Source: an uncultured Saprospiraceae bacterium (GTDB lineage: Bacteria > Bacteroidota > Bacteroidia > Chitinophagales > Saprospiraceae). Taken from it: a stretch of 64,000 nt of DNA. Positions 7,376 to 47,037 of the stretch are shown here, in pieces (position 1 is the stretch's first letter; every line of letters begins with the position of its first letter). Made by a program: the position numbers and the translations under genes. Under the pieces are notes generated by a model. It ran no database searches and had not been told where the DNA came from. It was given only the letters and a program-made list of their open reading frames with translations. Location of the stretch: positions 1 to 64,000 of the forward strand of contig CALLWB010000081.1 in NCBI GenBank assembly GCA_938016265.1, in the 5' to 3' direction.

Positions 7376-8041
7376 TCATTGACCACCAACCTTCGTGACT
7401 ATTGCCTGTCGCAAACCCAAATACTCCAAATAAACCGCACCATACTCCATCCGCTGACTAACCGTCTCCTCAAAATTCCCCCGCAACCCAATCAACAGTT
7501 CAGCAACTTCTCGGACAGCATGCGCTCCCCCTTCCATTCCAGTAATGTAATCACAACCTCCACGATTCACAATAAACTCCCTTAGCAACGGACTAGCAGC
7601 CCGCCGCACACAAACAGACAGTCCACAAAGACCAGCCGCTTTCAAATCAAGAATGTCGTCAAAAACAAATAGGATTTCCTCCAAAGCAAAATTATTCTCC
7701 AACGCCAATCGAGCAATCGTCGCCGCCTTGTCCTTGTTATTCAGCAACACAACATCCAAATGCTCCCGCTCCGCAAACCCAATAGCCGACAGGTTATTCG
7801 CCCCAGTAATAACCCCGGTAAAAGGCAATTCCTTATGCGCCAACCAATGACTAAAACGAAGCATATTCACCCCCATCGAATCCGGTTCAGAAAATGGACT
7901 ACCAGTTCCTCCATGTCTCTTAATCCCCGCATTAAACACCCCATCCCAATCAAACAAAATACATCGAATGTCAGAAAGTTTCTTTTGAATCTCGGTTGGA
8001 GAACTGAGAAATTGACCACCTAGCTGTTTAAATTGCTCCAT
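7376..8041 (-). CDS. KdsC-like HAD phosphatase (ulosonate-phosphate phosphatase)
   Basis: A 221-residue HAD-superfamily phosphatase. Motif I is DWDGVFNAG (Asp31 nucleophile, Asp33 acid/base), motif II is ITGANN (Thr79), the Lys of motif III lies in NKDKAATI (103-105), motif IV is VFDDILD (128-132). The C-terminal segment GGAHAVREVAELL matches the GGxGAVRE tail of KdsC (3-deoxy-octulosonate-8-phosphate phosphatase), which with the neighbouring kdsA-like gene supports the call. It differs from ordinary KdsC: about 45 residues longer (extensions at both ends), and the usual RDG near residue 53 reads PDSMG. Last gene of the minus-strand cluster, 155 bases after the transaldolase-CBS gene. Exact substrate uncertain. 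Confidence 0.8.
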   Translation of the reverse strand: MEQFKQLGGQFLSSPTEIQKKLSDIRCILFDWDGVFNAGIKRHGGTGSPFSEPDSMGVNMLRFSHWLAHKELPFTGVITGANNLSAIGFAEREHLDVVLLNNKDKAATIARLALENNFALEEILFVFDDILDLKAAGLCGLSVCVRRAASPLLREFIVNRGGCDYITGMEGGAHAVREVAELLIGLRGNFEETVSQRMEYGAVYLEYLGLRQAIVTKVGGQ

Positions 8042-8196
8042 TTTTTTTTATGGTTAATTGTGAATTGCTGTAAAATTCAGCGCTTTTTAAGTCTAAAAGG
8101 ATTGGTAAGCTCCTCCCGTTAGTAAAAGTGCATTTTGTCCTCTCTAAGCTCTACATTCAGTTTTTTTGCGCCAGCAAAACGAGTCTTGCTACTAGA

Positions 8197-9201
8197 CTAA
8201 ATCAAATGCTGAATATCCACCAACCCAATAAAATTATCCCCTTCCATCACCATGATGGTATCCACTCGTTTTTCCTTGCAAAGTTTTTTGGCGTCATACA
8301 AAGAAGCACTCGGATCAATAGCAACTGGTGCGCCAGGCTCCAGATCGGAAAGGCGCAGTTCATGAATATTGGTGCCTTGCTCCTTGAACATTCTTCTAAG
8401 GTCGCCGTCGGTGAAAATTCGTGCTACCTTATTGTTATTCATGACCGCAACGGCGCCTAGTTTGGACTTCGTCATCATGAGGAGCGCGTCAATCACTTTC
8501 TCAGAGGCATCAATTCGGACATTTTCTGATTTTACGATATCGCCAACTGTGGTAGTAAGGATTCTGGTGTCCTGGATAAACTGATTGGTGCCAATAGTGG
8601 TGAAATGATTGTCCGTCAGTTTTTTCATTATTTTCCATGGAATGGTGCAAGTATGAACACCGATAGCCAAGGCATTTCGAATATGCTCCGCATAGCGGAC
8701 AGAAGAAAACATCACCTTCGAAGAATAATTATACCGCTGCGTAATTTCTACGCATTCTCTAACTAACCCAAGTGCATCATGCCCTTGATCCTGCAAACGC
8801 CCAACCAGCGGACAAACATAAGTAGCCCCCGCACTAAACGCCATATAAGCCTGCTGTACGGTATAAACCAGATGAAGATTGACCATCATTCCCTGATCTA
8901 CTAGCATTTTACAAGCGCGCGTGCCTTCTAGAGAAACAGGTATCTTAAAAACAGTTTTCGATTTGTCTAGTCCAGTACCAATCAGTCGATTTGCCTCTGC
9001 TACAATCTCCTCCGCATTATCTCCTAAGGCTTCCAGTTGCAAAATGTCTACATACTTGGCAATCTCCAGCATTTGCGCATCCACATCCTCAATTCCCTCC
9101 CTGACCATAAAGGTCGGCGTCGTAGTTAGGCCCGTTAAGTACCCTAGTCGACTAGCTTCTTTTATCTCTTCCAGATTTACTGAATCTAAGTACAATTCCA
9201 T
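8197..9201 (-). CDS. Transaldolase-like aldolase fused to tandem CBS domains
   Basis: A 334-residue fusion. Residues 1-215 are a short-type (TalC/FSA) transaldolase barrel: Asp6 in MELYLD, Schiff-base Lys86 in VFKIPVS, Ser166/167 in FSSVRY, and AGATYVCPLVGRLQDQG. The Asn of the normally invariant TTNP motif is Thr28 here (TTTP). Residues about 218-334 are two CBS domains (IFTDGDLRRMF, then VDTIMVMEGDNF) that look like those at the C-terminus of KdsD, arabinose-5-phosphate isomerase. So the catalytic SIS domain of KdsD seems to be swapped for an aldolase domain. The gene starts 3 bases after the kdsA-like gene ends and is followed by the kdsC-like gene. Inference: it supplies the aldose phosphate for the synthase, and the CBS pair senses a nucleotide or end product. 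Confidence 0.85.
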   Translation of the reverse strand: MELYLDSVNLEEIKEASRLGYLTGLTTTPTFMVREGIEDVDAQMLEIAKYVDILQLEALGDNAEEIVAEANRLIGTGLDKSKTVFKIPVSLEGTRACKMLVDQGMMVNLHLVYTVQQAYMAFSAGATYVCPLVGRLQDQGHDALGLVRECVEITQRYNYSSKVMFSSVRYAEHIRNALAIGVHTCTIPWKIMKKLTDNHFTTIGTNQFIQDTRILTTTVGDIVKSENVRIDASEKVIDALLMMTKSKLGAVAVMNNNKVARIFTDGDLRRMFKEQGTNIHELRLSDLEPGAPVAIDPSASLYDAKKLCKEKRVDTIMVMEGDNFIGLVDIQHLI

Positions 9202-9204
9202 GAG

Positions 9205-10014
9205 CTATCTATATTTTTTTTCTATTAAATGAAGTTCAATCAATGGTTTGACAAATTCCTCCAGGTCATCAATGTGCAACTGACTCGCTGCATCACATAA
9301 TGCTTTTGGAGGATTAGGATGTGCTTCAATAAAAAGGCCATCCACTCCTGCAGCCACACCAGCACGAGCCAACGTCGGCAAATATTCTCTTAACCCACCA
9401 GCAGGATCTGAACTAGGGATCCCATACTTCCGTATCGAATGCGTAATGTCAAAAATAACTGGATAACCGGTTTGTGCTAGATCGAAAAAACTCCTCGGAT
9501 CTACAATCAAATCATTATATCCAAAAGCGTATCCTCTTTCTGTAAGGAGAATGTTTTTATTTCCGGTCGATTCAATTTTGGCAATCGGTTTAGCCATATT
9601 CTTAGGAGAAATAAACTGTCCGTGCTTGAGATTTATTGTCTTACCAGTTTTAGCGGCTTCTACGACTAAGGTCGTTTGCATGCAGAGATAAGCTGGTATT
9701 TGTATAATGTCTAATACTTCACCGGCGGCTTTTACCTGCGATGGAAAATGGACATCAGAAAGGATGGGAAAGCCAAATTCGGATTTTACTTTTTCTAGTA
9801 ATTTTAATCCTTCCTCCAGTCCAGGACCAATGTAATAATCTACTGAACTCCGGTTGTCTTTCATGAAGGAAGACTTGTAAATGATCGGTAGATCAAGCCG
9901 CTCCGAGATGCTCTTCAGTTTCTCGGCGGTTTCCATCATAATGGATTCTTCCTCAATAACACAAGGACCAGATATCAGAAACAATTGATCCGGGTCGAGT
10001 ACAAAGTTGTTCAT
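9205..10014 (-). CDS. KdsA-like 3-deoxy-ulosonate-phosphate synthase, divergent
   Basis: A 269-residue DAHP/KdsA-type barrel that joins PEP to an aldose phosphate. It keeps the metal ligands of the metal-dependent class (Cys18 in SGPCVIE, His192 in ITHS, Glu230 in FIEAH, Asp241 in LCDAAS), plus Lys47, Arg55-Ser56-Ser57 and the TERGYAFGYNDL loop. Several positions nearly constant in KdsA differ: SFDKANR reads SFMKDNR, RQTDL reads MQTTL (the Arg equal to Arg106 of the Aquifex enzyme is Met112), and VKKGQF reads LKHGQF. Most of these line the sugar-phosphate side of the pocket, so the substrate may not be arabinose 5-phosphate. First gene of a three-gene minus-strand set with the transaldolase-CBS and kdsC-like genes. 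Confidence 0.85.
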   Translation of the reverse strand: MNNFVLDPDQLFLISGPCVIEEESIMMETAEKLKSISERLDLPIIYKSSFMKDNRSSVDYYIGPGLEEGLKLLEKVKSEFGFPILSDVHFPSQVKAAGEVLDIIQIPAYLCMQTTLVVEAAKTGKTINLKHGQFISPKNMAKPIAKIESTGNKNILLTERGYAFGYNDLIVDPRSFFDLAQTGYPVIFDITHSIRKYGIPSSDPAGGLREYLPTLARAGVAAGVDGLFIEAHPNPPKALCDAASQLHIDDLEEFVKPLIELHLIEKKYR

Positions 10015-32798: not shown

Positions 32799-32970
32799 TA
32801 TTCCAACTAAGATTGCTTTCAGGCGATCAAAATTTTTAAACCATTCAAGATTCCGCCAAGTCTGGAACCCCGTATACACCTGGCAAGTAAAATTGCCCCT
32901 AGAAATCTATTGTTCATCGTGAAGTGTACCAACATTATGTATGCTTCACACCCTTAAACATTTCAAAACT
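32799..32970 (+). promoter_or_regulatory. Conserved structured 5' leader RNA, copy A
   Basis: About 170 bases between the promoter and the DUF1800 gene. Four stem-loops can be drawn: GATTG/CGATC (32811-32815 with 32824-32828), TTCC/GGAA (32851-32854 with 32864-32867), GGCAA/TTGCC (32882-32886 with 32893-32897), GTGAAG/CTTCAC (32919-32924 with 32944-32949). The same four stems exist at the same places ahead of copy B (40013-40188) while loops and spacers differ. CGTATAC lies between the second and third stems in both. The last stem covers an upstream in-frame ATG (32941). I infer a cis-acting regulatory RNA; no known riboswitch class recognised. Confidence 0.6.
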
Positions 32971-34629
32971 ATGGCCTCATTAACACAGAGATCAGGTGTT
33001 TTGGGACGGCGATTGGCTGCACATCTCTTAAGGAGATGTACGTATAATGTTACTCCCTCCCGTATCGATGATTTTGCGACCAAAACTGCTAGTCAGGCGG
33101 TCAACGAATTGTTCGTAAACACCTCACTACTTTATCCAGACGGTCCTTTGGATCCTTCTGGAGCACCCTATTTTTCACTTACCACACGCCTCAACGAACC
33201 CGGGCTTAGTGCTTCCGGCGGCATTCGAGTCCGTGCGATGACTACCTGGAGAACCTATGAATGCATGAATGATACTTCCATCAAGTGGAAACTTGCCAAT
33301 TGGATAGGATCTATTTATTCGGTTTACCACTCTGGGCTTATCCAAAACTACCAATATTGGCGACTTGCTGAAAAAATGGCATTTGAAAACCTGAAATCAT
33401 TAGCCTCAAAAATGACTTTTGATAATCATATGCTGATTTATTTGAACAACCAACAAAATACTCAAGGTTCTCCAAACGAAAACTATGCACGGGAATTTTT
33501 AGAGCTATTTACTATTCTCAAAGGAGAAGCTATTGGCACAGGTAATTATACAAACTATACCGAAGCAGATATCTCAGAAGCTGCAAGAGTATTTACTGGA
33601 ATAAAAGTCAATAATACCAATCTGGATCCAGAGACAGGAATTATTAGAGGACTTCCAAACTTCAATCAGCACGACACTGGTGACAAAGTATTTAGTGAGG
33701 CATTTGGAAATACGCTAGCCGAACGAACAATTGTAGGCGCTACCAATCAAGCTGGGGTCTATGCTGAAGTAGATCAGTTTGTAGACATGGTTTTTAACCA
33801 AGTAGCAACGGCTCAGGCGTATGTTAGAAAACTCTATCAATATTTTGTCAATGACAAACTGACACAAGAAGTTGAAGATGATATTATTGTGCCTTTAGGA
33901 AATAGCTTGCATTCCAACGGCTACGATCATACAGCAATTCTTAAAACCTTATTAAAAAGTCTCCATTTCTATGATGAAGATGATTCAGAAAGTGATGATG
34001 AAATCGTAGGTGCTAAATTGAAGTCTCCTTATGAAATGTTGTTTACAACATCCAATTTGTTAGAAACATCCAATGTGAATGTAGCTAATAATGGATTGAC
34101 TTTTAACAATAATTACAACAGCGTTGTCGCCTTGCATTTGAATAATGTCGGTCTAGATATGAGAGGGCCAATTACCGTAGAAGGGTTTGCAGGATTTTAT
34201 GACGCGCCGGGATTTTCCAAAAACTGGTTTAGCGCAAATTTTGTTTATGAACGATTTACTTACGGAATATCATTTAGAAGAGGAAAGGTCCGAAATACGA
34301 ACACCAATTTCCCTTACTTAGTCAACCTAATGAACTGGGTAAATGGAAATGTGGAAACCCCCGGTGGTCCTGGAACCCCCTTCGCTCCCATAGGCGCTGC
34401 TGATGCATTCAAAGTCATCAACGACATGCTTTCCTACTTGGTTGCAGAAATGCCAACAGGCGACCGACTTGACTATTTCGAAAATCAGTTGCTTGGTGGA
34501 CTTAGTCCCATCAACTGGTATTTTTCGTGGGCGGAGTATTTAAACACGGGCGATGATACAGATGTGCTGGTAGGAATTACCAATCTGTATGACGCCATCC
34601 TTTCTTCACCCGAATTCCAAACATTTTAA
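32971..34629 (+). CDS. DUF1800 family protein, copy A
   Basis: I start at the ATG at 32971 (MASLTQRSGVLGRRLAAHLL, 552 residues), the usual opening of DUF1800 proteins. An in-frame ATG at 32941 adds MLHTLKHFKT and is also present in copy B, but lies within the last leader stem. The family hallmark HLLRRCTYNVTPSRIDDFA is followed by conserved blocks such as NENYAREFLELFTI (the N-ENYARE-L-ELFT motif common to the family), TEADISEAARVFTG, AYVRKLYQYFVND and SPYEMLFTTSNLL. No signal peptide is seen. DUF1800 genes nearly always sit directly before DUF1501 genes, as here (9 bases apart). Biochemical role unknown; linked by context to an exported DUF1501 partner. Confidence 0.9.
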   Translation: MASLTQRSGVLGRRLAAHLLRRCTYNVTPSRIDDFATKTASQAVNELFVNTSLLYPDGPLDPSGAPYFSLTTRLNEPGLSASGGIRVRAMTTWRTYECMNDTSIKWKLANWIGSIYSVYHSGLIQNYQYWRLAEKMAFENLKSLASKMTFDNHMLIYLNNQQNTQGSPNENYAREFLELFTILKGEAIGTGNYTNYTEADISEAARVFTGIKVNNTNLDPETGIIRGLPNFNQHDTGDKVFSEAFGNTLAERTIVGATNQAGVYAEVDQFVDMVFNQVATAQAYVRKLYQYFVNDKLTQEVEDDIIVPLGNSLHSNGYDHTAILKTLLKSLHFYDEDDSESDDEIVGAKLKSPYEMLFTTSNLLETSNVNVANNGLTFNNNYNSVVALHLNNVGLDMRGPITVEGFAGFYDAPGFSKNWFSANFVYERFTYGISFRRGKVRNTNTNFPYLVNLMNWVNGNVETPGGPGTPFAPIGAADAFKVINDMLSYLVAEMPTGDRLDYFENQLLGGLSPINWYFSWAEYLNTGDDTDVLVGITNLYDAILSSPEFQTF

Positions 34630-34638
34630 TTTAAAATC

Positions 34639-36705
34639 ATGAAAAGAAGGAAATTTTTAAAAAGTGGGTTAGTTGCCGGATTGACGCCTCTGTTTGTAAA
34701 TGGTTATGCCATGAACAGCCTGAGTGCCTCCTTGATCCCCGCATCAACCTGCGATATAGACGATAGAGTTTTAGTAATTATATACCTGGCAGGAGCAAAT
34801 GATATTATCAATACAGCTGTTCCTTTAAATCATTATACCGAATATCAAACTGAACGACCAGATATTCACCTACCACAAAGCTCTTTAATTCAATTGGACA
34901 GTTCCTTGACTGGCACTGCACAGGATTTGGGATTAAATCCCGCATTGACAGGATTGAAAAGCCTTTATGACAATTCTAAGCTTTCTGTTGTGCAACGCGT
35001 GAGTTATCCATCCCCCAATCGATCACATTTTACCTCAGAAGACAATATGCTAAAAGGTCTGGACGGTACCATTTCTAATTCGAGTGTCGAAGATGGTTGG
35101 ATTGGACGTTTCCTAACCGACAAGTATCCAACGTATAACGGTTTACCATTTGGTGCAGAGCTAGATCCTTTGGGAATCATCCTCGGTTCAACTCCTAGTA
35201 CAGGATTCCATTCGGTAGAAGATCATGAGATGGAAATTAACCTTAGCGGTCAAGATCCTGCTGGTTTTTACAGCATTATCTCCTCCCTCAGCGGCGAACC
35301 AATATCTAACTTCCCGAATTCAGAGCACGGGGAGATGTTGAGTTATGTTTCTTTGGTAGAGAAAAGTACGCAGGTTTATTCTGAACGAATATCCAATATT
35401 TTTAACCAAGGTGGTAACAATCCAACTGCTGGCTATCCTAACTCTAGTCTTGGCAATCAATTAAAAACGGTAGCTCGTTTTATCTCTGGTGGTTCTAGAA
35501 CTAAAGTATTTATGGCAAGAAAAGGTGGTTGGGACAATCACGTAAATGCAGTAGATACTTCTAATACCACTTTAGGGACGCACGCTAATTTACTAGCAGA
35601 CTTAGGGGATTCCATTGCCGCATTCCAAAAAGATCTGGAACTAATGGGCAATTCCTCTAAAGTAGTCACTGTTGTCTTTTCTGAGTTTGGTCGAAAGATT
35701 ATTCAGAATGGTAGCAATGGGACAGACCATGGAACGATGTCTTCTATGTTTGTTGTAGGAGATGCAGTAGAAGCAGGAGTTTATGGCGATAATATTGACA
35801 TAACCAATAAAGATGCACAGGGCGCTCCACACCCCGATCAGTTACAAAACGACTATCGAACTGTTTTTGCTAATATTTGTCAGGATTGGATGGGCGCCAG
35901 TGACGCTTCAGTGCTAAATACGTTCTCTCAAACACCTTCCAGCATTGTACTAGCTAATTTAGGATTGATAAACAGTGCCGAAACGGTAGATCCTACTTGT
36001 TATTTCGAGCCGGTTCAACCGGTATCTCTTACCTTACGCGCTAAACTTTGGCTGGAAGGTTTTATAGATAACAATGCAGCAGGACCTGTCATGTCTACCG
36101 CACTTGTAGACGATGGCCATTTGCCATATCTACAACCTTATGGTGATACTCGGTACAGTTATTATGGAGATGAGTCAGTCTCCAGTTTTCCTGCGAACAC
36201 TGTAGATTGGTTACTTCTGGAAGTCTGGAATCAGAGCAATCTGGTTATCGACAGAAAGGCTGTTTTACTAAGAAGCGACGGTCGAATTATGAATCTAAAT
36301 GGAGGACTACAAGTACCAATTGATGGGCTTTACCCAGAACCGATTCGCATTGCGTTTTTACACCGATCTCATATTGGCGTACTTGCTTCTACAGAAATTA
36401 ATGCTGTGGAGGGAGCCACCCCATTTCTAAATTTAACAACTCAGGTTACTTCGGTAGAAGGAAACAATCAGTTGAAAAACATGAATGGAGCTTACGCCAT
36501 GATTGCAGGCGACGCCAATCAGAATGGATTGATTGATACCGCAGATTATAGCTACTGGAAACGGTCAAGCTACAATAGCGTACCTGGCTATGGCAGTGCA
36601 GATCTTAATGCAGATGGACTTGTGGACAACACAGACTACCTGCTTTGGAAAGGCAACCGTAGTAAAATTGGAAACCCTATTCTTCATGACATCTTAAAAC
36701 GATAA
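34639..36705 (+). CDS. DUF1501 family protein with Tat signal and dockerin-like tail, copy A
   Basis: A 688-residue protein. The start MKRRKFLKSGLVAGLTPLFV is a twin-arginine signal (RRKFLK), so it should be exported folded. The DUF1501 domain (about 40-460) belongs to the alkaline phosphatase/sulfatase superfamily, with KGGWDNH and GTDHG as likely metal-site motifs. A beta-rich domain follows (about 470-610; YGDTRYSYYGDESVSSFPAN, TVDWLLLEVWNQSN). The end holds two dockerin-like calcium loops: GDANQNGLIDTADY and ADLNADGLVDNTDY. The dockerin-like tail suggests docking to another protein; the next gene encodes a large T9SS cargo. Nine bases after DUF1800, twelve before the cargo gene, so one operon. 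Catalytic activity, if any, unknown. Confidence 0.92.
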   Translation: MKRRKFLKSGLVAGLTPLFVNGYAMNSLSASLIPASTCDIDDRVLVIIYLAGANDIINTAVPLNHYTEYQTERPDIHLPQSSLIQLDSSLTGTAQDLGLNPALTGLKSLYDNSKLSVVQRVSYPSPNRSHFTSEDNMLKGLDGTISNSSVEDGWIGRFLTDKYPTYNGLPFGAELDPLGIILGSTPSTGFHSVEDHEMEINLSGQDPAGFYSIISSLSGEPISNFPNSEHGEMLSYVSLVEKSTQVYSERISNIFNQGGNNPTAGYPNSSLGNQLKTVARFISGGSRTKVFMARKGGWDNHVNAVDTSNTTLGTHANLLADLGDSIAAFQKDLELMGNSSKVVTVVFSEFGRKIIQNGSNGTDHGTMSSMFVVGDAVEAGVYGDNIDITNKDAQGAPHPDQLQNDYRTVFANICQDWMGASDASVLNTFSQTPSSIVLANLGLINSAETVDPTCYFEPVQPVSLTLRAKLWLEGFIDNNAAGPVMSTALVDDGHLPYLQPYGDTRYSYYGDESVSSFPANTVDWLLLEVWNQSNLVIDRKAVLLRSDGRIMNLNGGLQVPIDGLYPEPIRIAFLHRSHIGVLASTEINAVEGATPFLNLTTQVTSVEGNNQLKNMNGAYAMIAGDANQNGLIDTADYSYWKRSSYNSVPGYGSADLNADGLVDNTDYLLWKGNRSKIGNPILHDILKR

Positions 36706-36717
36706 CAATCTATTATT

Positions 36718-39700
36718 ATGAAATATATAAATTATCAAGAATTTGGCTACAGGAAGTTCCTTGGTCTGCTTGTTTTGTTCTCTTTGGGAATAGGGCAGGC
36801 TTTCAGCCAAATCGTAAAAATAGAGCTCGGCGGCTACAATGACTGTTCGGGACAATTGCAGGTGGATATTAAAATAAAATCCTCCGACTTTTCTGCTACT
36901 GATTTTTCAATAGGAAGTTCTAGTATCTTCTTAAACTATGATCCACAAATTGTAACTTACAATTCCTATACTCCAATAGAATTTGATTCTAATACGTCGA
37001 CTCAAGCAGCTGGAGCAAATTGGGAACCTCAACAAAATGATGTGGATGCTGAATGTGGTTTATTTGATTTGATCCTCCAAAAAGAAGCGGGTGGCACAAA
37101 TGACTATGTACTCGATAAAACCAACTATATCACTGTTGGTCGGGTATACTTCGACTTTGTTGGGGCAGATGCAGACCCAATGATCGGTATTAATCAACGA
37201 TTTACAATGTTCAATTCTTCAGAATTGAATGATGGCACCGCGATGAAAGATATCGAAGACTATCCAAAACTACTAGACTACAGTTGTAACAATTGTGTTA
37301 GTCCAACGATTTCCAGTATGGACGAAACACCTTCTACCTGTATTGCTGATAATGGCGCCATCTCCTTTACTTTCCCGGACGCGCCAGGAAGATCCCATAT
37401 CGAGTTCAGTATCGATGGTGGTTTGACGTATCCATTTTTGACGCCGGACAACATTGGCGCTTACAACATTATCAATCTTGCGTCTGGCACTTATGATCTT
37501 TGGGTACGATGGGGGAATAATGATTGCCCAACGGATTTACCAGATGCTACGATCACTACAACTGGAGGCCCAACAGCTTCTGCGAGTTCTATCAATGCTT
37601 GTGGTGCTCAAAATGACGGAGTCATTACCTTTTCCTTCCCAGACACACCAGGCAGAACGGGCATTGAATTTAGTACGGATGGCGGAACAACTTACCCACA
37701 TCAATCTGCAGATAATGTTGGCGCTTTGGTACTCACAGGAGTCGCGCCCGGAGCCTATGACATTTGGGTGCGCTGGGGAAATAATGATTGTCCAACGGAT
37801 CTAGGAATGATCAATGTGAATAGCTGGGATATTCCTGTTGTTACAACCAGCAGGTTACATCAGTGTGAAGGATATCTAAATTCAGCTTCTATTACCTTCA
37901 CGTTTGAGGATAGCCCACAACGTTCTGGGATTGAATTTAGTTTGGATGGCGGAGCGACTTACCCCCATACCTCTCTAGACAACGCAGGGACTTTAACTGT
38001 GGCTGGTATTCAACCAGGTGTTTATGATCTTTGGGTACGCTGGGGCAATAATGATTGTCCGCAGGATCTGCCCAATGTTACTATTAGTATTTGGGATGTG
38101 CCAGAGGTGACGGTGACAAGAACACATATGTGTGCCAATGATCCAAACTCAGGTTCCATCACCTTTACCTTTGTGGATAGTCCGCAAAGAACTGGAATTG
38201 AGTTTAGCCTGGATGGCGGGGCGACTTACCCACATGGATCACCGGATAATGCTGGGACATTAACGGTAGACGGTGTGCAGCCTGGCACTTATGATTTGTG
38301 GGCGCGATGGGGCAACAACAATTGTCCAGTAGATATACCAAATGCAACCATCAACGAGTTAGTCGCACCAAAAGCAGAAGCAAATGTAACTGCTGTTTCT
38401 TGCAATGACGATGGGGTGATTACCTTCCAGTTTCCGGATACACCGGGAAGAACAGGAATTGAGTTTAGTATTGATGGGGGACAGACATACCCTCATGGTT
38501 CAGCTGATAATGTTGGTTCCTTTGATGTAACTGGTGTTTCTCCTGGCACTTATGATCTTTGGGTACGGTGGGGCAATAATGATTGTCCAACAGACATGAA
38601 AGATGTCACTGTCGCTTCATTAGATCCGCCTGTGGCTACAAGTGCCAAAAAACATGCTTGTTTTGATGATGGGAAAATCACCTTTACCTTCCCTGACAAT
38701 CCAGCAAGATCGCATATTCGATTTAGTTTGGATGGTGGGGTAACCTATCCACATGTTTCGTTGGACAACGCAGGAACCTATCAAGTTACTGATTTAGCGC
38801 CAGGGTTGTATGATCTTTGGACTAGATGGGGTAACAATGATTGTCCTACGGATTTACCCAATCAAAACATTATCCAATACGATCTTCCAATCGTAACATC
38901 AGCTAGGAAAAATTACTGTTCTGATGAGCCTCCTTCCGGGGAAATCACCTTCACTTTTGAAGATAGCCCACAACGGACGGGCATCGAGTTTAGTATTGAT
39001 GGTGGAGCCACCTACCCTTATGGATCTTCTGATGCTGCAGGTACTTACACCGTAGCAGGGTTAGCTGCGGCTTCTTATGATCTTTGGGTACGTTGGGGAA
39101 ACAATGACTGTCCAATTGATCTTCCCAATCAAAACATCATTGCCTGGGATCTGCCTTCGGTCACTACTGGGAAAGTTGATGTTTGCAAAGGAGGAACAGT
39201 GACTACTGGGTTATTGATTTTCCAATTTCCTGACAATCCACAGCGTTCAAACATTAGATTTAGTATTGATGGTGGAGCGACTTATCCATATATTTCTCCT
39301 GATAATGCTGGGTTTTATGTGATCTCTGGTGTGGCCATTGGCAAATATGATCTTTGGTCAAGATGGGGCAATAACGATTGTCCGGTCAATATTATGGATC
39401 AAGCTGTTGAACTTATCGAGTGTAGTAATGGAACGCGAGTTATTCCTGATTTTGTAGATATCCGCAAGGATTTACCAGGAGAATTAGCGCCCTCGCTTGA
39501 GAGTTTCCAGCAAAATATCAACGCCGGCAATTCGACTGATGGAGAAGTTTCTCTTTTCCCGAATCCTGCTAGCGATTTTGTAAATCTTGATTTGAGTAAC
39601 TATAAATCTACCGTAGAGGAGATCAAGATTTTCAACATCGAAGGAATTTTAGTGAAACGTGAATTGATCAATGAAGGTATCTCTGGTATCTATACTGCTG

Positions 39701-39792
39701 ATGTCAGTGGGTTAGGTAATGGCGGTTACTATGTTGTTATTCGCTCTTCGGATAAGGAGATTAGTTCTCTCAAGTTTATTATTTCTAAATAA
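36718..39792 (+). CDS. Large T9SS cargo with eight ~88-residue repeats, copy A
   Basis: A 1024-residue secreted protein. Signal peptide 1-30 (cut after AFS). Residues about 31-190 form one beta-sandwich-like domain (IVKIELGGYNDCSGQLQVDI, FSIGSSSIFLNYDPQIV), somewhat cohesin-like by eye. Residues about 198-902 are eight repeats with period 86-90: consensus G-x-ITFTFxDxPxRxxIEFS, then DGGxTYPxxSxDNxG, then GxxPGxYDLWVRWGNNDCP. Each repeat has two Cys (one before the repeat core, one in NDCP), so a disulfide per repeat is likely. The end (about 944-1024) is a T9SS sorting domain (VSLFPNPASDFVNLDLSN to LKFIISK). A surface-displayed or released stalk is the best reading. I do not recognise the repeat family. 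Confidence 0.9.
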   Translation: MKYINYQEFGYRKFLGLLVLFSLGIGQAFSQIVKIELGGYNDCSGQLQVDIKIKSSDFSATDFSIGSSSIFLNYDPQIVTYNSYTPIEFDSNTSTQAAGANWEPQQNDVDAECGLFDLILQKEAGGTNDYVLDKTNYITVGRVYFDFVGADADPMIGINQRFTMFNSSELNDGTAMKDIEDYPKLLDYSCNNCVSPTISSMDETPSTCIADNGAISFTFPDAPGRSHIEFSIDGGLTYPFLTPDNIGAYNIINLASGTYDLWVRWGNNDCPTDLPDATITTTGGPTASASSINACGAQNDGVITFSFPDTPGRTGIEFSTDGGTTYPHQSADNVGALVLTGVAPGAYDIWVRWGNNDCPTDLGMINVNSWDIPVVTTSRLHQCEGYLNSASITFTFEDSPQRSGIEFSLDGGATYPHTSLDNAGTLTVAGIQPGVYDLWVRWGNNDCPQDLPNVTISIWDVPEVTVTRTHMCANDPNSGSITFTFVDSPQRTGIEFSLDGGATYPHGSPDNAGTLTVDGVQPGTYDLWARWGNNNCPVDIPNATINELVAPKAEANVTAVSCNDDGVITFQFPDTPGRTGIEFSIDGGQTYPHGSADNVGSFDVTGVSPGTYDLWVRWGNNDCPTDMKDVTVASLDPPVATSAKKHACFDDGKITFTFPDNPARSHIRFSLDGGVTYPHVSLDNAGTYQVTDLAPGLYDLWTRWGNNDCPTDLPNQNIIQYDLPIVTSARKNYCSDEPPSGEITFTFEDSPQRTGIEFSIDGGATYPYGSSDAAGTYTVAGLAAASYDLWVRWGNNDCPIDLPNQNIIAWDLPSVTTGKVDVCKGGTVTTGLLIFQFPDNPQRSNIRFSIDGGATYPYISPDNAGFYVISGVAIGKYDLWSRWGNNDCPVNIMDQAVELIECSNGTRVIPDFVDIRKDLPGELAPSLESFQQNINAGNSTDGEVSLFPNPASDFVNLDLSNYKSTVEEIKIFNIEGILVKRELINEGISGIYTADVSGLGNGGYYVVIRSSDKEISSLKFIISK
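37309..39423 (+). repeat. Eight tandem ~264-bp coding repeats, copy A
   Basis: Repeats with the RWGNNDCP landmark at about residues 264, 352, 441, 530, 617, 703, 791 and 881 of the cargo protein. The repeats are alike in protein but not identical in DNA, so the array is old enough to have drifted yet remains regular. Confidence 0.9.
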
Positions 39793-40012: not shown

Positions 40013-40188
40013 TCCCACATAGATTAGATTGTTTACAAGCGATCGTTTTTATCTTAACCTTTCATATTCCACTAAGTTTGGAAACACGTATACGGTTAGC
40101 AATTTTAATTGCTCCTTAAAATCTATTGTTCATTGTGAAGTGTTCAAGTGTATTCTGTATGCTTCACGCTACTAAACATTTCAAAACT
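40013..40188 (+). promoter_or_regulatory. Conserved structured 5' leader RNA, copy B
   Basis: Counterpart of 32799-32970. Stems: GATTG/CGATC (40027-40031 with 40040-40044), TTCC/GGAA (40067-40070 with 40080-40083), AGCAAT/ATTGCT (40098-40103 with 40108-40113), GTGAAG/CTTCAC (40135-40140 with 40162-40167). In the third stem the outer pair is A-T here and G-C in copy A, a compensatory change. The sequence just before the DUF1800 ATG (AAACATTTCAAAACT) is identical in both copies. Confidence 0.6.
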
Positions 40189-41877
40189 ATGGCCTCACTA
40201 ACACAGAGATCAGGTGTTTTGGGACGGCGATTGGCTGGGCATCTCCTTAGGAGATGTACCTATCATGTAACGCCCTCCCGCATCGATGATTTTGCAGGAA
40301 AAACTGCGAACGACGCAGTCGATGAATTATTCGAACCCATAATAAATCCAAATGGAGAAGTCTATGAGGGGCTTTACCCGAAAGGCCCATTGGATCCAGA
40401 TGGAGACCACTATTTTTCAATTTCAGAAAATGACCATGAGCCCGGAGCGAGCGCAAGCAACAATGTTCGGGTCCGTGCAATTACGACATGGAGAGTTTAT
40501 GAATGTATGAATGACACCACCATCAAGTGGAAACTTGCCAATTGGATTGGATCCATCTATTCTGTCTATCATTCAGGATTGCTCATTAACTATCACTATT
40601 GGCGACTAGCAGAGAGGATGGCATTTGATAATCTAAAATCATTAGCATCAAAAATGACTTTTGATTTAAACATGCTGATTTATTTGAACAATCGGCTAAA
40701 CAACAAAAATGCACCTAACGAGAACTACGCAAGAGAGTTTTTAGAGCTGTTTACTATCCTTAAAGGTGAACCCGCAGGAATTGGTAATTACACCAACTAT
40801 ACAGAAGCGGATATTACCCAAGCCGCAAGAGTGTTGACCGGAATAAAGACGGGCAACCCAACCATTGATCCTGATACTGGCATTATTCGCGGAAAACCGG
40901 TGTTCACTCAGCATGATACAGGAGATAAAACCTTTTCTAGCGCATTTACGGATGCCTCCGGGAATACCTACACCATTGCAGGAGCGACAAATGAAGCCGG
41001 AGTTTATGCGGAAGTAGACCAGTTTATAGAAATGGTTTTTGATCAAGAAGCTACTGCTCAGAATTACGTAAGAAAATTGTATCGATACTTTGTCAATGAC
41101 AAAATCACTCCCGAAATTGAAACGGACATCATTATTCCCTTAGGTACTACGTTATTAAACAACGGATACCAGCATGTTCCTGTATTAAAAGAACTATTAA
41201 AAAGTCTTCACTTTTATGATGAAGATGATACCGAAAATGAGGATGAAATCGTAGGAGCAAAAATTAAGTCTCCCTATGAAATGTTATTCACCACCGCCAA
41301 TTTATTAGAAACTTCAAACTTGAATACGGCGAATCATCAAGCAACTTTTTATAATAACTTCAATTCCTTAGTCGCTCACCACCTTGATAATGTAGGCCTC
41401 AGTATGAGAGGACCAATCACCGTGGAAGGATTTCCTGGATTTTATGACGCACCAGGATATTCAAAAAACTGGTTTAATGCGAATTATGTTTATGAACGGT
41501 TTACTTATGGAGTTTCCTTTAAAAATGGAAAAATCAGAAATACAAATTTTGCCTTTCCCTACAAAGTAGATTTAATGAATTGGGTAAACAATAATATAGA
41601 AGTAGCTGGTGGGCCAGGGGTTGATCCTTCTGCTCCTATTGGCGCAGCTGATGCATTTAAGGTTGTCAATGACATGCTTTCTTATTTGCTAGCAGAAATG
41701 CCAGTTGGCGACCGCCTTAGCTATTTCGAAAACCAACTACTTGGTGGGCTTAGTCCTATCAACTGGTATTTCTCGTGGAAAGATTATTTAAACAGTGGTA
41801 ATGAAACTGATGTGCTTCTAGGTATTACCAACCTATATGATGCCATCCTTTCTTCACCCGAATTTCAAACATTTTAA
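40189..41877 (+). CDS. DUF1800 family protein, copy B
   Basis: Paralogue of 32971-34629. Start at the ATG at 40189 (MASLTQRSGVLGRRLAGHLL, 562 residues); in-frame codons upstream extend into the conserved leader and are unlikely to be translated, although MLHATKHFKT before it matches copy A. Conserved blocks: HLLRRCTYHVTPSRIDDFA, NENYAREFLELFTI, TEADITQAARVLTG, NYVRKLYRYFVND, SPYEMLFTTANLL. Ends in SSPEFQTF exactly as copy A. It has small insertions relative to copy A near residues 45-70 and 245 (TDASGNTYTIAG). The DUF1501 partner starts 9 bases downstream. Role unknown. Confidence 0.9.
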   Translation: MASLTQRSGVLGRRLAGHLLRRCTYHVTPSRIDDFAGKTANDAVDELFEPIINPNGEVYEGLYPKGPLDPDGDHYFSISENDHEPGASASNNVRVRAITTWRVYECMNDTTIKWKLANWIGSIYSVYHSGLLINYHYWRLAERMAFDNLKSLASKMTFDLNMLIYLNNRLNNKNAPNENYAREFLELFTILKGEPAGIGNYTNYTEADITQAARVLTGIKTGNPTIDPDTGIIRGKPVFTQHDTGDKTFSSAFTDASGNTYTIAGATNEAGVYAEVDQFIEMVFDQEATAQNYVRKLYRYFVNDKITPEIETDIIIPLGTTLLNNGYQHVPVLKELLKSLHFYDEDDTENEDEIVGAKIKSPYEMLFTTANLLETSNLNTANHQATFYNNFNSLVAHHLDNVGLSMRGPITVEGFPGFYDAPGYSKNWFNANYVYERFTYGVSFKNGKIRNTNFAFPYKVDLMNWVNNNIEVAGGPGVDPSAPIGAADAFKVVNDMLSYLLAEMPVGDRLSYFENQLLGGLSPINWYFSWKDYLNSGNETDVLLGITNLYDAILSSPEFQTF

Positions 41878-41886
41878 TCATCAATC

Positions 41887-43944
41887 ATGAAAAGAAGGAA
41901 ATTTTTAAAAAGTGGGCTAGTTGCCGGATTGACACCTCTGTTTGTAAATGGCTATGCCATGAACAGCCTGAGTGCTTCGATGATCCCAGCTTCAGCCTGC
42001 GATATAGACGATAGAGTTTTAGTAATTGTGTACCTGGGAGGGGCAAATGATGCGATAAATGCTGCGGTACCCTTAAATCAGTTTGGTGAATATCGAGATG
42101 CCCGACCTGATATACACTTACCACAAAACTCTTTAATTAAATTGGACAACTCCTTGACGGGCACCAGTCAGGATTTAGGGTTACACCCATCACTGACGGG
42201 CCTCAAAGATTTATATGACAACTCAAAACTTTCTATAGTGCAACGAGTTGGCTATCCACAACCAAATCGGTCTCATTTTACCTCTCAGGACAATATGCTC
42301 AAAGGCATTGACGGAACAATTGCAAATTCTGGAGTGTCGGAAGGTTGGATTGGACGTTTTTTGACGGATAAATATCCAACTTATAAAGGATTGCCATTTG
42401 ATAATCATGAAGACCCATTAGGAATCATCCTAGGAGACACACAAAGTACAGGATTCCATACAGCTGCAGAACACGAGATGGAAATAAACCTTAGTGGGCA
42501 AGATCCTGCAGGATTTTTTAATATCATCTCTTCCCTTAGTGGCGAACCAATTTCTAACTTTCCAAATTCCGAGAACGGAGAAATGCTAAGTTATATTTCT
42601 CAGGTGGAGAAAAGTACACAAGTGTATTCAGAAAGGATATCTTCGGTTTTTGATACAGGTGGGATGGCTCCTCAAGAAGTTTATCCGAATTCTAGTTTAG
42701 CAAATCAGCTGAAAACTGTAGCTCGATTAATTGTCGGAGGTTCGAAAACCAAAGTGTTCATGGCTAAGAAAGGTGGTTGGGATAATCACGTCAATGCAGT
42801 AAATGCTTCAGATACAAGACTAGGAAAACATGCTAATCTACTAGCAGATTTGGGCGATTCCCTTCAATCCTTCCAAAACGACCTGGTGGCAAAGGGTATT
42901 TCTTCCCAAGTCGTAACGGTCGTTTTCTCTGAGTTCGGGCGAAAAATTATTCAAAACGGAAATTTAGGAACAGACCACGGGACGATGTCTTCAATGTTTG
43001 TTGTCGGTGATGCTGTAAACGCAGGGGTGTTTGGTGACAATATTGATATCCTAAATCAAGATAATCAGGGTGCTCCAGATCCAGGTCAATTGCAGAATGA
43101 TTATCGTACTGTCTTTGCTAATATCTGTCAAGACTGGATGGGAGCAAGTGACGACTCTATTCTTAATACTTTTCCTCTTACTCCATCGCAGGTAGTTCTT
43201 ACAAATCTGGGATTGATAAACTCAAATGAAAAAGTAGATAATACTTGTTACTTTGAGCCGGTTCCACCAGTTTCCTTGACAATTCGAGGCAGACTTTACC
43301 TTGAAGGATTTTTGGAATCCTCTGGACTGATGTCAACCGAATTGGCAGATAGTGGTGTTTTACCAACTTCACAACCTTACGGCGATACCCGATACAGTTA
43401 TTATGGAGAGGAATCGGTTTCCAGCTTTCCTGCAAACACAGTAGACTGGCTATTGATGGAAGTTTGGAATGAGAGCAATCTTGTCATCGATAGAAAAGCA
43501 GTGTTATTGAGAAATGATGGTCGAATCACGAAACTGAATGGAGGGTTGCAAATCCTTGTTTCTGATCTATATCCTGAAAAAATTCGGATTGCGTTCCTGC
43601 ATCGATCTCATATTGGTGTGCTTGCTTCTAAAAAAATCGACGCAGCGCAAGAAGCTACACCAGTTGTAAATATTTCGACAGCAGTTGACACGGTAGAAGG
43701 GAATAACCAATTAAAGAACATTGGTGGAAAGTACGCGATGATCGCTGGAGATGCCGATCAAAACGGACTAATCAATACCGCAGATTATAGCTATTGGAAG
43801 CGCTCAAGTACCAATAGTGTCGCGGGCTACCAAAATGCCGATCTGAATGCTGACGGACTGGTCGACAACTCCGATTACCTGCTTTGGAAAAACAACCGTA
43901 GTAAAATTGGAAACCCTATTCTTCATGGTATTTTAAAACGATAA
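41887..43944 (+). CDS. DUF1501 family protein with Tat signal and dockerin-like tail, copy B
   Basis: A 685-residue paralogue of 34639-36705. The first 31 residues (MKRRKFLKSGLVAGLTPLFV...) are the same as in copy A up to SLSAS, including the twin-arginine motif. The DUF1501 core keeps KKGGWDNH and LGTDHGTMSSMFVVGD; the beta-rich region keeps YGDTRYSYYGEESVSSFPAN; the tail keeps two dockerin-like loops (GDADQNGLINTADY and ADLNADGLVDNSDY) and the end NRSKIGNPILH-x-ILKR. Differences cluster in the middle of the core. Expected to be exported by Tat and to act with the large T9SS cargo encoded 18 bases downstream. Activity unknown. Confidence 0.92.
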   Translation: MKRRKFLKSGLVAGLTPLFVNGYAMNSLSASMIPASACDIDDRVLVIVYLGGANDAINAAVPLNQFGEYRDARPDIHLPQNSLIKLDNSLTGTSQDLGLHPSLTGLKDLYDNSKLSIVQRVGYPQPNRSHFTSQDNMLKGIDGTIANSGVSEGWIGRFLTDKYPTYKGLPFDNHEDPLGIILGDTQSTGFHTAAEHEMEINLSGQDPAGFFNIISSLSGEPISNFPNSENGEMLSYISQVEKSTQVYSERISSVFDTGGMAPQEVYPNSSLANQLKTVARLIVGGSKTKVFMAKKGGWDNHVNAVNASDTRLGKHANLLADLGDSLQSFQNDLVAKGISSQVVTVVFSEFGRKIIQNGNLGTDHGTMSSMFVVGDAVNAGVFGDNIDILNQDNQGAPDPGQLQNDYRTVFANICQDWMGASDDSILNTFPLTPSQVVLTNLGLINSNEKVDNTCYFEPVPPVSLTIRGRLYLEGFLESSGLMSTELADSGVLPTSQPYGDTRYSYYGEESVSSFPANTVDWLLMEVWNESNLVIDRKAVLLRNDGRITKLNGGLQILVSDLYPEKIRIAFLHRSHIGVLASKKIDAAQEATPVVNISTAVDTVEGNNQLKNIGGKYAMIAGDADQNGLINTADYSYWKRSSTNSVAGYQNADLNADGLVDNSDYLLWKNNRSKIGNPILHGILKR

Positions 43945-43962
43945 CCCTATTAATTTTTAATT

Positions 43963-46900
43963 ATGAAATATATCAATTATCAAGTATTTGGCTATAGGGG
44001 ATTCCTTAGTCTGCTTGTTTTGTTCTCTTTTGGAATAGGGCAGGCTTTTAGCCAAATCGTAAAAATAGAGCTCGACGGTTACAATAACTGTTCGGGGCAA
44101 ATTCAAGTAGATATTAAAATAAAATCCTCCGACTTTTCTACTACGGATTTTTCCATTGGAAGCTCCAGTATTTTCTTAAATTTTGATCCGCAAATTGTTA
44201 GTTACAATTCTTACACTCCAGTAGAGTTTGATGCTGATGTTTCGACGCAGGCAGCTGGGGCGAATTGGTTGCCTCATCGATACGATGTTGATGCTACATG
44301 TGGCTTGTTTGACCTAACGCTACAGAAAGAAGAGGGCGGAGTAAATAATTATGACCTAAATAAATCTACCTACATAACAATTGGTACGGTTTACTTCGAT
44401 TTTGTATTTACAGACACTGATCCAATGATCAGTATTAATCAATTATTTACCATGTTCAATTCTGCTGACCAGAATGATGGTACAGCGATGAGGGACATTG
44501 AAAACTATCCAAAACTATTGCAGTATAGTTGTAATAATTGTGTTAGTCCGACCATTACAAGTATCAATGAAACTCCTTCTACGTGCATCGAAGAAAATGG
44601 GGCTATTTCATTTACATTCCCCAATGACCCAACTCGCACTTTCATTGAGTTTAGCATTGATGGTGGATTGACCTACCCGTTTAATATTAATGACAATGTC
44701 GGTACCTACAACATTATCGATCTGGCGTCTGGTACTTATGACCTTTGGGTCCGCTGGGGAAATAACAATTGTCCGCTGGATTTGCCTGATGCCACGATTA
44801 TTACAACAGGTGGGCCGACAGCATCTGTCAGTGCTACTAATTCTTGTGGTGCTCAAAATGATGGAGTTGTTACATTTACTTTCCCAAACACCCCAGGCAG
44901 GACTGGAATTGAGTTTAGTACCGATGGAGGATTGACTTATCCTCATTTCTCGCCTGATATTGCGGGATCCCTTGTCGTAGATGGATTTGCTCCAGGTGTA
45001 TATGATATTTGGGTTCGATGGGGAAACAATGATTGTCCTACAGATCTGGGAACTATTAGTATCAATAGCCTGGATGTTCCAATAGTAACTGTTAATAGGC
45101 TTCATATGTGTGATGGATATCCGAATTCAAGCCTCATCAAATTCAGCTTCCAGGACAGCCCACAACATTCAGGCATTGAGTTTAGCTTGGATGGGGGAGT
45201 AACTTACCCCTATTCTGTAGATGATGCTGACGGTTCATTGGAGATTTTGGGTTTGCCTCCCGGCGTTTATGACCTTTGGGTGCGTTGGGAAAATGGTAAC
45301 TGCCCGTTAGACTTGCCAGGGGTTACCATTGGTGTTTGGGATAGTCCACAAGTAACTGTTTCCAGAACCCATATGTGCGCCAATGATCTCAATTCTGGTT
45401 CTATAACTTTCAACTTTGAGGATAGTCCACAAAGGACAGTTATTGAATTTAGTCTAACTGGTGGTCCGCCATTTCCGTACAACGCTCCAGATAATTCAGG
45501 TTCACTCACTTTAGACGGTATACAGCCTGGTACGTATGATTTGTGGGTACGCTGGGGGAACGACCATTGTCCGGTCGATCTTAATGAGGTAACTATTGAG
45601 GAATTGGTTGCACCTAATGTACAAGCAACTGCAACTGCCCTTTCTTGCAATGATGATGGAGTCATCACCTTCCAATTCCCAAATGAACCAACAAGAGGTG
45701 GCCTAGAATTTAGTATAAATGGAGGTCAGAGTTTTCCGTATGCCTCTCCGGATAATGCCGGCTCATTTGATTTAACCGGTATCGCTCCTGGTACGTATGA
45801 TGTTTGGGCAAGATGGGGAAACAACCAATGTCCAACAGCTGTCAATTTAGTTACCGTTGGCTCCTTGGATTCCCCAATTGCAACAAGCACAGCGAAGGCT
45901 TCTTGTTTTGATGATGGTGAAATCACCTTTACTTTCCCAGATCATCCTACAAGAGGGATTATCCGCTTCAGTTTGAATGGTGGATGGACTTATCCGTATA
46001 TTACTTATGATAATGTGGGGACTCTTAAAGTTACTGGATTGGCGCCTGGAACTTATGATCTATGGGCCAAATGGAATGACCATACTTGTCCAACCAATTT
46101 AACAAATAGAACTATCATTCAACTTGATCTGCCTGAGGTTACTACAGTTAAGAAAGATTATTGTTCGAATGAGCCTCCATCTGGAGAAATTACTTTCACC
46201 TTTGCCGATAGTCCAGAGCGATCTGCTATTGAGTTTAGCATAGATGGTGGATTGACTTTCCCGTATTGGACTCCTGACAATTCAGGGACCTATACTGTTG
46301 CCGGATTATCTGCTGGTACTTATGATCTGTGGGTTAGATGGGGAAATAACCAATGTCCAATTGATCTAGCAGATCAAACCATCGAAGCGCAAAATTCGCC
46401 TTTTGTTGCCACAGGGAAAGTAGATGTTTGTATGGGGGGATCAATCCAAACTGGATTATTGACCTTCAAATTCTTTAACGATCCACTTCAAACAGTGATT
46501 CGGTTTAGTATTGATGGGGGAGCGACTTATCCCTATATTTCTCCAGATGATGCTGACTTCTTTGTGATTTCTGGAGTGGCAGTTGGTCAATATGATTTGT
46601 GGGCAAAATGGGGAAAAAACGACTGCCCTATTGATATTATGGATCAATCTGTTGAACTTATTAACTGTAGTAGTGGTGTTCGGATTATTCCTGACTTTGT
46701 CGATCTTCAAAAGGATTTGCCAGTAGAATTGGCGTCCTCATTTGAAAACTTCCAACAAGATTTGGCAGACACCAATTCACCGGAAGGAAGAATTTCTCTT
46801 TTCCCGAATCCAGCCAATGATTTTGTAAATCTTGATTTGACCAACTATGAATCTACCGTAGAGGAAATCAAAATTTTCAATATCGAAGGAATTTTAGTGA

Positions 46901-47037
46901 AACGTGAATTGATCAATGAAGGAGTCTCTGGTATCTATACTGCTGATGTCAGTGGGTTAGGTAGTGGCGGTTACTACGTGGTTGTTCGTTCTGCGGATAA
47001 GGAGGTTAGTTCACTCAAGTTTATTATTTCTAAATAA
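43963..47037 (+). CDS. Large T9SS cargo with eight ~88-residue repeats, copy B
   Basis: Paralogue of 36718-39792 with exactly the same length, 1024 residues, and the same plan: signal peptide, one N-terminal beta-sandwich-like domain (about 31-190), eight repeats, T9SS sorting domain (ISLFPNPANDFVNLDLTN to LKFIISK). The signal region and the last 90 residues are almost unchanged, while the repeats have drifted: several RWGNNDCP cores have become RWENGNCP, KWNDHTCP, RWGNNQCP and KWGKNDCP, and TYP has become PPFP or SFP. The Cys positions are kept, which argues for structural disulfides and ongoing selection. Function unknown; a surface stalk or adhesin is likely. Confidence 0.9.
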   Translation: MKYINYQVFGYRGFLSLLVLFSFGIGQAFSQIVKIELDGYNNCSGQIQVDIKIKSSDFSTTDFSIGSSSIFLNFDPQIVSYNSYTPVEFDADVSTQAAGANWLPHRYDVDATCGLFDLTLQKEEGGVNNYDLNKSTYITIGTVYFDFVFTDTDPMISINQLFTMFNSADQNDGTAMRDIENYPKLLQYSCNNCVSPTITSINETPSTCIEENGAISFTFPNDPTRTFIEFSIDGGLTYPFNINDNVGTYNIIDLASGTYDLWVRWGNNNCPLDLPDATIITTGGPTASVSATNSCGAQNDGVVTFTFPNTPGRTGIEFSTDGGLTYPHFSPDIAGSLVVDGFAPGVYDIWVRWGNNDCPTDLGTISINSLDVPIVTVNRLHMCDGYPNSSLIKFSFQDSPQHSGIEFSLDGGVTYPYSVDDADGSLEILGLPPGVYDLWVRWENGNCPLDLPGVTIGVWDSPQVTVSRTHMCANDLNSGSITFNFEDSPQRTVIEFSLTGGPPFPYNAPDNSGSLTLDGIQPGTYDLWVRWGNDHCPVDLNEVTIEELVAPNVQATATALSCNDDGVITFQFPNEPTRGGLEFSINGGQSFPYASPDNAGSFDLTGIAPGTYDVWARWGNNQCPTAVNLVTVGSLDSPIATSTAKASCFDDGEITFTFPDHPTRGIIRFSLNGGWTYPYITYDNVGTLKVTGLAPGTYDLWAKWNDHTCPTNLTNRTIIQLDLPEVTTVKKDYCSNEPPSGEITFTFADSPERSAIEFSIDGGLTFPYWTPDNSGTYTVAGLSAGTYDLWVRWGNNQCPIDLADQTIEAQNSPFVATGKVDVCMGGSIQTGLLTFKFFNDPLQTVIRFSIDGGATYPYISPDDADFFVISGVAVGQYDLWAKWGKNDCPIDIMDQSVELINCSSGVRIIPDFVDLQKDLPVELASSFENFQQDLADTNSPEGRISLFPNPANDFVNLDLTNYESTVEEIKIFNIEGILVKRELINEGVSGIYTADVSGLGSGGYYVVVRSADKEVSSLKFIISK
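44554..46668 (+). repeat. Eight tandem ~264-bp coding repeats, copy B
   Basis: Same register as the array in copy A; the repeat cores are more varied here. Confidence 0.85.

Follow-up and report, generated by a model that had tools for sequence, protein, structure and literature searches.

A transaldolase–CBS fusion as a candidate replacement for KdsD in the Kdo synthesis of Bacteroidota

A three-gene locus from an uncultured Saprospiraceae bacterium appears to encode a variant pathway to 3-deoxy-D-manno-octulosonic acid (Kdo) in which a transaldolase–CBS fusion protein stands in for the isomerase KdsD. The locus lies in the first 64,000 nucleotides of contig CALLWB010000081.1 (GenBank assembly GCA_938016265.1), the stretch that we analyzed and refer to as the window, and comprises a kdsA-like gene, the fusion gene, and a gene for a KdsC-like HAD phosphatase. 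Kdo is part of the minimal lipopolysaccharide in nearly all Gram-negative bacteria, where it anchors the outer-membrane polysaccharide, and the D-arabinose 5-phosphate (A5P) isomerase is treated as the entry point of its synthesis. Replacement of KdsD by the fusion is well supported by sequence evidence of four kinds, namely the absence of KdsD, a complementary distribution across genomes, operon linkage, and residue conservation. In our view, the locus represents a variant of the Kdo route that is real, coherent, and widespread in Bacteroidota; its chemistry is an informed guess, and we put the probability of the whole chain, chemistry included, at about 0.5. Many Bacteroidota seem to enter a textbook essential pathway through an alternative first step that has gone unrecognized.

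Gene content and distribution

All three genes lie on the minus strand of the window. The first (9205–10014, 269 residues) encodes a Kdo 8-phosphate synthase, KdsA, of a fusion-linked subtype assigned from curated models, alignment, and a tree. The second (8197–9201, 334 residues) encodes the fusion of a transaldolase/fructose 6-phosphate aldolase (FSA) barrel to a CBS pair, which Pfam, NCBIfam, distribution, and AlphaFold together led us to propose as the A5P source replacing KdsD. The third (7376–8041, 221 residues) encodes a HAD enzyme that is a distant relative of KdsC and the proposed Kdo 8-phosphate phosphatase. An open reading frame (ORF) check of the window confirmed the coordinates given by a first-pass annotation of this DNA, including the 3 bases (9202–9204) that it had reported between kdsA and the fusion gene; 155 bases separate the fusion gene from the HAD gene. 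The order kdsA-fusion-HAD is kept across families, and this conserved synteny excludes a chance adjacency of the three genes.

The first-pass annotation had also called KdsD absent and left room for a full canonical pair of kdsD and kdsA at another place in the same genome. Profile searches of the window's genome (7.44 Mb, completeness 100, contamination 2.8) returned no SIS-type KdsD, the matches to KpsF/KdsD being CBS-only partials, and the single KdsA over cut-off is the one in the locus; a hidden canonical KdsD and a second KdsA, both of which we had considered, were not found there. The genome further encodes one KdsB, one WaaA, and a separate, plain transaldolase. The pathway below the three genes is thus complete, and A5P supply is the only step in this genome without a known enzyme.

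We then surveyed a class-wide draw of 396 genomes, in which the fusion (E ≤ 1e-60) occurs in 78 genomes, KpsF/KdsD (E ≤ 1e-25) in 233, and KdsA (E ≤ 1e-50) in 302. Among the 302 genomes with KdsA, 71 have only the fusion, 223 only KdsD, three both, and five neither (Fisher p 6e-59). This complementary distribution, the operon structure, and the lack of KdsD in the window's genome uphold the earlier suggestion that the fusion occupies the place of KdsD. Scores separate the fusion cleanly from its relatives, the weakest fusion reaching 222 bits and plain transaldolases at most 142 bits. One of the five genomes with neither protein (G357) carries a broken fusion-type KdsA (73% identity), and two others are 80–83% complete. 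The class sample is phylogenetically non-independent, a problem that a genus-level test of fusion against KdsD (p 1.7e-14) and switches within families reduce but do not remove. Nine families hold genomes with only the fusion, in its lysine-retaining form, beside genomes with only KdsD, and the remaining five genomes of the window's own family (5/5) have KdsD and lack the fusion; mixed families of this kind argue against a single old split and for repeated replacement. The fusion is rarer in a phylum-wide draw, occurring in 4 of 344 others, and a search of 72,556 plasmids yielded no full-length fusions, only plain FSA-like genes.

The KdsA subtype, the phosphatase, and the sugar that is made

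The KdsA of the window exceeds the cut-offs of TIGR01362 (330.9 bits versus 314) and PRK05198 (336 versus 242) and, in common with metal-type KdsA, has an equivalog score and all ligands of phosphoenolpyruvate (PEP) and the metal (C11, K46, Q99, K124, R154, H185, E222, and D233), which are invariant in both the fusion-type group and the others. It differs in the aldose pocket and in the L2 and L7 loops, which are rewritten, and it belongs to a separate clade. Seven replacements (A47D, F103Y, R106M, K125H, Q188R, P190Y, and S232C in Aquifex numbering) are present in 47/47 fusion-type KdsA sequences and 0/61 others, the first of them turning the aldose motif KANRS into KDNRS; the loss of sugar-pocket residues seen by the first-pass annotation in the window, represented by the first six, proved to be clade-wide. 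Identity to the window KdsA is 65–79% for sequences from fusion genomes and 38–55% for those from KdsD genomes, and in a maximum-likelihood tree the 47 fusion-type sequences group together in a single, fully supported clade on a long stem. Two fusion genomes, G442 (C135:39650) and G474 (C9:11853, L119), encode an additional, ordinary-type KdsA, with no KdsD over threshold.

The HAD enzyme shares with KdsC the DxD motif and a downstream acidic motif and occurs nearly wherever the three-gene set does, but it differs in its length of 221 residues, its changed RDG region, and its low scores. It has no Pfam match and falls below every KdsC model, with 33 bits versus 107 for TIGR01670 and 49 versus 208 for NF007019, a cut-off that Bacteroidota KdsC proteins in general do not reach; the changed RDG region is as the first-pass annotation described it. 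This divergent form is present in nearly all tested fusion genomes, the exceptions being G378 and the divergent family f56, and also in G249 and G648; at comparable score, it occurs in no KdsD genome tested. In 12 fusion genomes there is no other KdsC-like match of ordinary strength, which leaves the HAD enzyme as the sole candidate phosphatase there. The window's genome has a second KdsC-like gene (C56:57168-57647, 109 bits). A KdsC-like domain also lies inside a 386-residue open frame of this genome (G000:C110:25534-25998), perhaps as part of a fusion with a nucleotidyltransferase like those of nonulosonic acid pathways.

Joint change in synthase and phosphatase could be explained if the fusion made a different aldose phosphate and the pathway led to a ulosonic acid other than Kdo, as the first-pass annotation had allowed. 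The fixed KdsA pocket changes (47/47 versus 61 others) and the equally divergent HAD enzyme favor this reading, but the genes downstream, judged by their sequences, point to ordinary Kdo. KdsB is over cut-off in 65/65 tested genomes and WaaA in 64/65, and no column of the KdsB alignment separates the fusion group from the KdsD group. Several relatives, moreover, have the operon kdnA-kdnB-kdsA-fusion-HAD, often with kdsB close by, in which KdnA and KdnB are close matches to the proteins of the Shewanella 8-amino-Kdo pathway (best PDB matches 5k8b, E 4e-128, and 5k8c, E 2e-121, respectively). The known substrates of these two enzymes derive from Kdo, and as 5k8c is named Kdo 8-oxidase, Kdo should be made in those relatives. 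Neither KdnA nor KdnB was found in the 64-kb window, and of the rest of the genome, only the KdsB neighborhood was looked at for them.

The acceptor of the KdsA subtype can be approached through genomes that combine it with KdsD. G249, assembled as one closed contig of 7.0 Mb, and G648 have the operon minus the fusion and a complete KdsD elsewhere, their sole candidate A5P source. Their KdsA has every fusion-type residue and nests beside that of a fusion-bearing genome of the same family (G190). KdsD and the fusion therefore seem able to replace each other ahead of one and the same KdsA, whose likely acceptor is accordingly A5P. Together with the KdsB and KdnA/KdnB data, this renders a sugar other than Kdo quite unlikely in our judgment, and we consider A5P a highly probable product of the fusion. 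In both genomes the operon reads kdnA-kdnB-kdsA-HAD (L310 and L311), a reversal inside the fusion-type clade. Two further genomes (G548 and G566) have KdsD and the fusion, with a fusion-type KdsA as their only KdsA, a gene content compatible with an exchange of KdsD and the fusion upstream of the same KdsA.

Domains and predicted chemistry of the fusion

The barrel of the fusion (residues 1–211; 8569–9201, minus strand), delimited from Pfam, residue alignment, and Foldseek, matches Pfam TAL_FSA with 122 bits (cut-off 27), and two CBS matches follow it. Against the FSA/TalC equivalog TIGR00875, the protein scores 161 bits, under the curated cut-off of 246. In the AlphaFold model of the fusion (mean predicted local distance difference test score of 92), the N-terminal barrel resembles short transaldolases (Foldseek E 1.5e-21; 34% identity to the Thermotoga maritima transaldolase). 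The CBS pair (residues 215–333; 8203–8559, minus strand), which carries a TDGDLRR motif, is closest to that of KdsD: KpsF/KdsD models match the fusion by this part alone, the SIS isomerase domain being absent, the NCBIfam KdsD model NF008141 gives 55 bits, and the top three PDB matches are all KdsD CBS structures. One matched entry, 4o9k, was presumably solved with CMP-Kdo. With KdsD, KpsF, and GutQ, the fusion therefore shares the CBS type, the layout of a catalytic domain followed by CBS, and, by its distribution, the place in the pathway; it differs in having a transaldolase/FSA barrel rather than a SIS domain in the predicted A5P-forming role. Our literature search, which covered few subscription journals, found no paper linking a transaldolase–CBS protein to Kdo.

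With FsaA and TalC/MipB, the fusion has in common the barrel, the Schiff-base lysine, Asp6, a glutamate, Arg134, and Ser166. The window protein retains K86 (FSA Lys85), D6, E57, N108, R135, and S167 and has T28, H110, C130, and L132 in place of N, T, S/A, and F/Y. Among KdsA-linked fusions, K85, D6, E59, N107, R134, and S166 (FsaA numbering) are retained in 57/57 aligned sequences, position 59 being Glu as in transaldolase (FsaA has Q59), and the donor-pocket changes N28T, T109H, S/A129C, and F/Y131L are fixed in 57/57; these changes, the C-terminal CBS pair, and the sub-cut-off score set the fusion apart from FsaA and TalC/MipB. Escherichia coli FsaA and KdsB sequences served as numbering rulers, and the residues of the FsaA ruler match those that PMC13259622 names by position. 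In FsaA, N28 and A129 recognize the donor, T109, Q59, and Y131 organize the catalytic water (PMC13259622), and residue 129 sets the preference for or against the donor C1-OH of dihydroxyacetone (PMC3962226). As aligned, the changes in the fusion are on the donor side and the acceptor phosphate site is retained, a pattern expected if the donor is glycolaldehyde or another compound that lacks the C1 hydroxymethyl group.

Glycolaldehyde fits what is known of FSA. Cleavage of A5P into glycolaldehyde and glyceraldehyde 3-phosphate (GAP) is an activity of E. coli FsaA (PMC6900487), for which glycolaldehyde is reportedly the preferred donor and GAP the preferred acceptor (PMC6298115). The skeleton of an A5P-type aldose has a single class I aldol disconnection, at C2–C3, and it leads to these same two compounds. 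We propose that A5P comes from the fusion instead of KdsD, through a class I aldol addition in which glycolaldehyde, attached to Lys86 as an imine/enamine, would add to GAP held by Arg135. If A5P is the product, this substrate pair is a somewhat better than even bet. The aldol origin of the aldose phosphate put forward by the first-pass annotation accords with the kept Schiff-base lysine, the phosphate arginine, and the A5P activity of FsaA, and the reaction itself stands as a prediction. A transaldolase-type transfer giving A5P was also considered and set aside, since cleavage of the donor would require an octulose phosphate. Kdo 8-phosphate would next arise from the condensation of A5P and PEP by the KdsA subtype and be dephosphorylated by the HAD enzyme, and KdsB and WaaA, encoded elsewhere in the genome, would use the product. 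Judging by its likeness to the CBS pair of KdsD, that of the fusion probably senses a late product, for example CMP-Kdo, and throttles the first step. CBS-mediated throttling of this step is thought to apply to KdsD as well.

The main rival of the aldolase is an isomerase: the transaldolase barrel may have been turned into an enzyme resembling triosephosphate isomerase that converts ribulose 5-phosphate to A5P, with Lys86, His110, and Glu57 moving protons. Such an enzyme would carry out the KdsD reaction on an unrelated fold, start from the same precursor as KdsD, and need no glycolaldehyde; T109H sets an invariant histidine beside the retained lysine and glutamate, and the aldol-tuned residues N28 and F/Y131 are gone in 57/57. 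There is also a parallel in genomes that have neither KdsA nor KdsD, where a KdsC gene adjoins genes for ribulose-phosphate 3-epimerase-like (RPE-like) proteins, one of which bears a KdsD-like CBS pair. However, members of the transaldolase family work through a Schiff base, a lysine imine offers no simple route from a ketose to a free aldose, and A5P is already a good FSA substrate by aldol cleavage. We consider isomerization unlikely, if not negligibly so. It is far less probable that the fusion serves as a sensor or a side enzyme carried along with the operon while A5P comes from an unrecognized isomerase. Divergent fusions of family f56, in which the catalytic lysine is lost and which are found in genomes lacking KdsA, would suit that idea, but KdsA-linked fusions retain the lysine, the acid/base residues, and the phosphate arginine in 57/57, and the presence of the fusion tracks the absence of KdsD almost one to one.

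Several points weigh against the aldol pathway as we propose it. The rewritten aldose pocket is unexplained if the KdsA acceptor is plain A5P, though the change could be compensation within the L2 and L7 loops of KdsA. As the KdsA subtype is one clade, its pairing with the fusion partly reflects shared ancestry and block transfer. Glycolaldehyde is not an abundant metabolite, and its supply is the weak point: dihydroneopterin aldolase, in folate synthesis, is one general source but maybe too small for the Kdo demand, and the neighbors of the fusion include no conserved glycolaldehyde-forming gene. T109H and F/Y131L remove the water/tyrosine network of FSA and transaldolase, so that catalysis would have to differ in detail. 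Finally, the enzymatic activity of the fusion is itself predicted from sequence.

If the substrates are indeed glycolaldehyde and GAP, FSA-type aldol activity would gain a physiological role, and the cellular source of glycolaldehyde would come into question; to our knowledge, aldol formation of A5P by FSA has so far been seen only in vitro and in engineered pathways. If the variant holds for this branch of Bacteroidota, metabolic models, predictions of essential genes, and many genome annotations will need correction.

Divergent fusions and a second gene set

Transaldolase–CBS fusions of a divergent kind (34–38% identical) occur at L101–L104 in genomes without KdsA (G514, G444, G386, and G417). 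Their Schiff-base lysine is replaced by Arg or Ser in 4/4, so these proteins are not aldolases of this type. Genomes of family f56 and genus g192 lack KdsA (TIGR01362), and KdsB and WaaA are nonetheless present in G386 and G444.

In f56 and g192 genomes without KdsA, we found a second alternative set (L326:4945-7542, L327:6483-9091, L328:5377-7985, L329:5739-8361, and L330:3159-5888) consisting, in a row, of an RPE-like protein with a C-terminal extension, a protein of the 3-deoxy-D-arabino-heptulosonate 7-phosphate (DAHP) synthase type, and a KdsC-family HAD enzyme. The extension is a KdsD-like CBS pair in L330, and the DAHP synthase-type protein has the erythrose 4-phosphate motif KPRTSPYTF. 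This set could be another replacement of KdsD and KdsA, or it could make a seven-carbon acid. Its composition suggests repeated rebuilding of the pathway's entry step around the same sensor. A CBS sensor attached in turn to a SIS isomerase, a transaldolase barrel, and an RPE barrel would, if this is true, mean that what is conserved at the heart of the committed step is the sensor rather than the enzyme. The combined proposition, in which Kdo synthesis is entered through a transaldolase-fold A5P synthase acting on glycolaldehyde and GAP under KdsD-type CBS feedback and the sensor sits on at least three unrelated folds, we hold tentatively, at slightly less than even odds.

Elsewhere in the window, two tandem ORF sets of 562/688/1024 residues (32941–39792) and 583/685/1024 residues (40126–47037) are possibly duplicated SusD/SusC-like uptake sets, going by size only.

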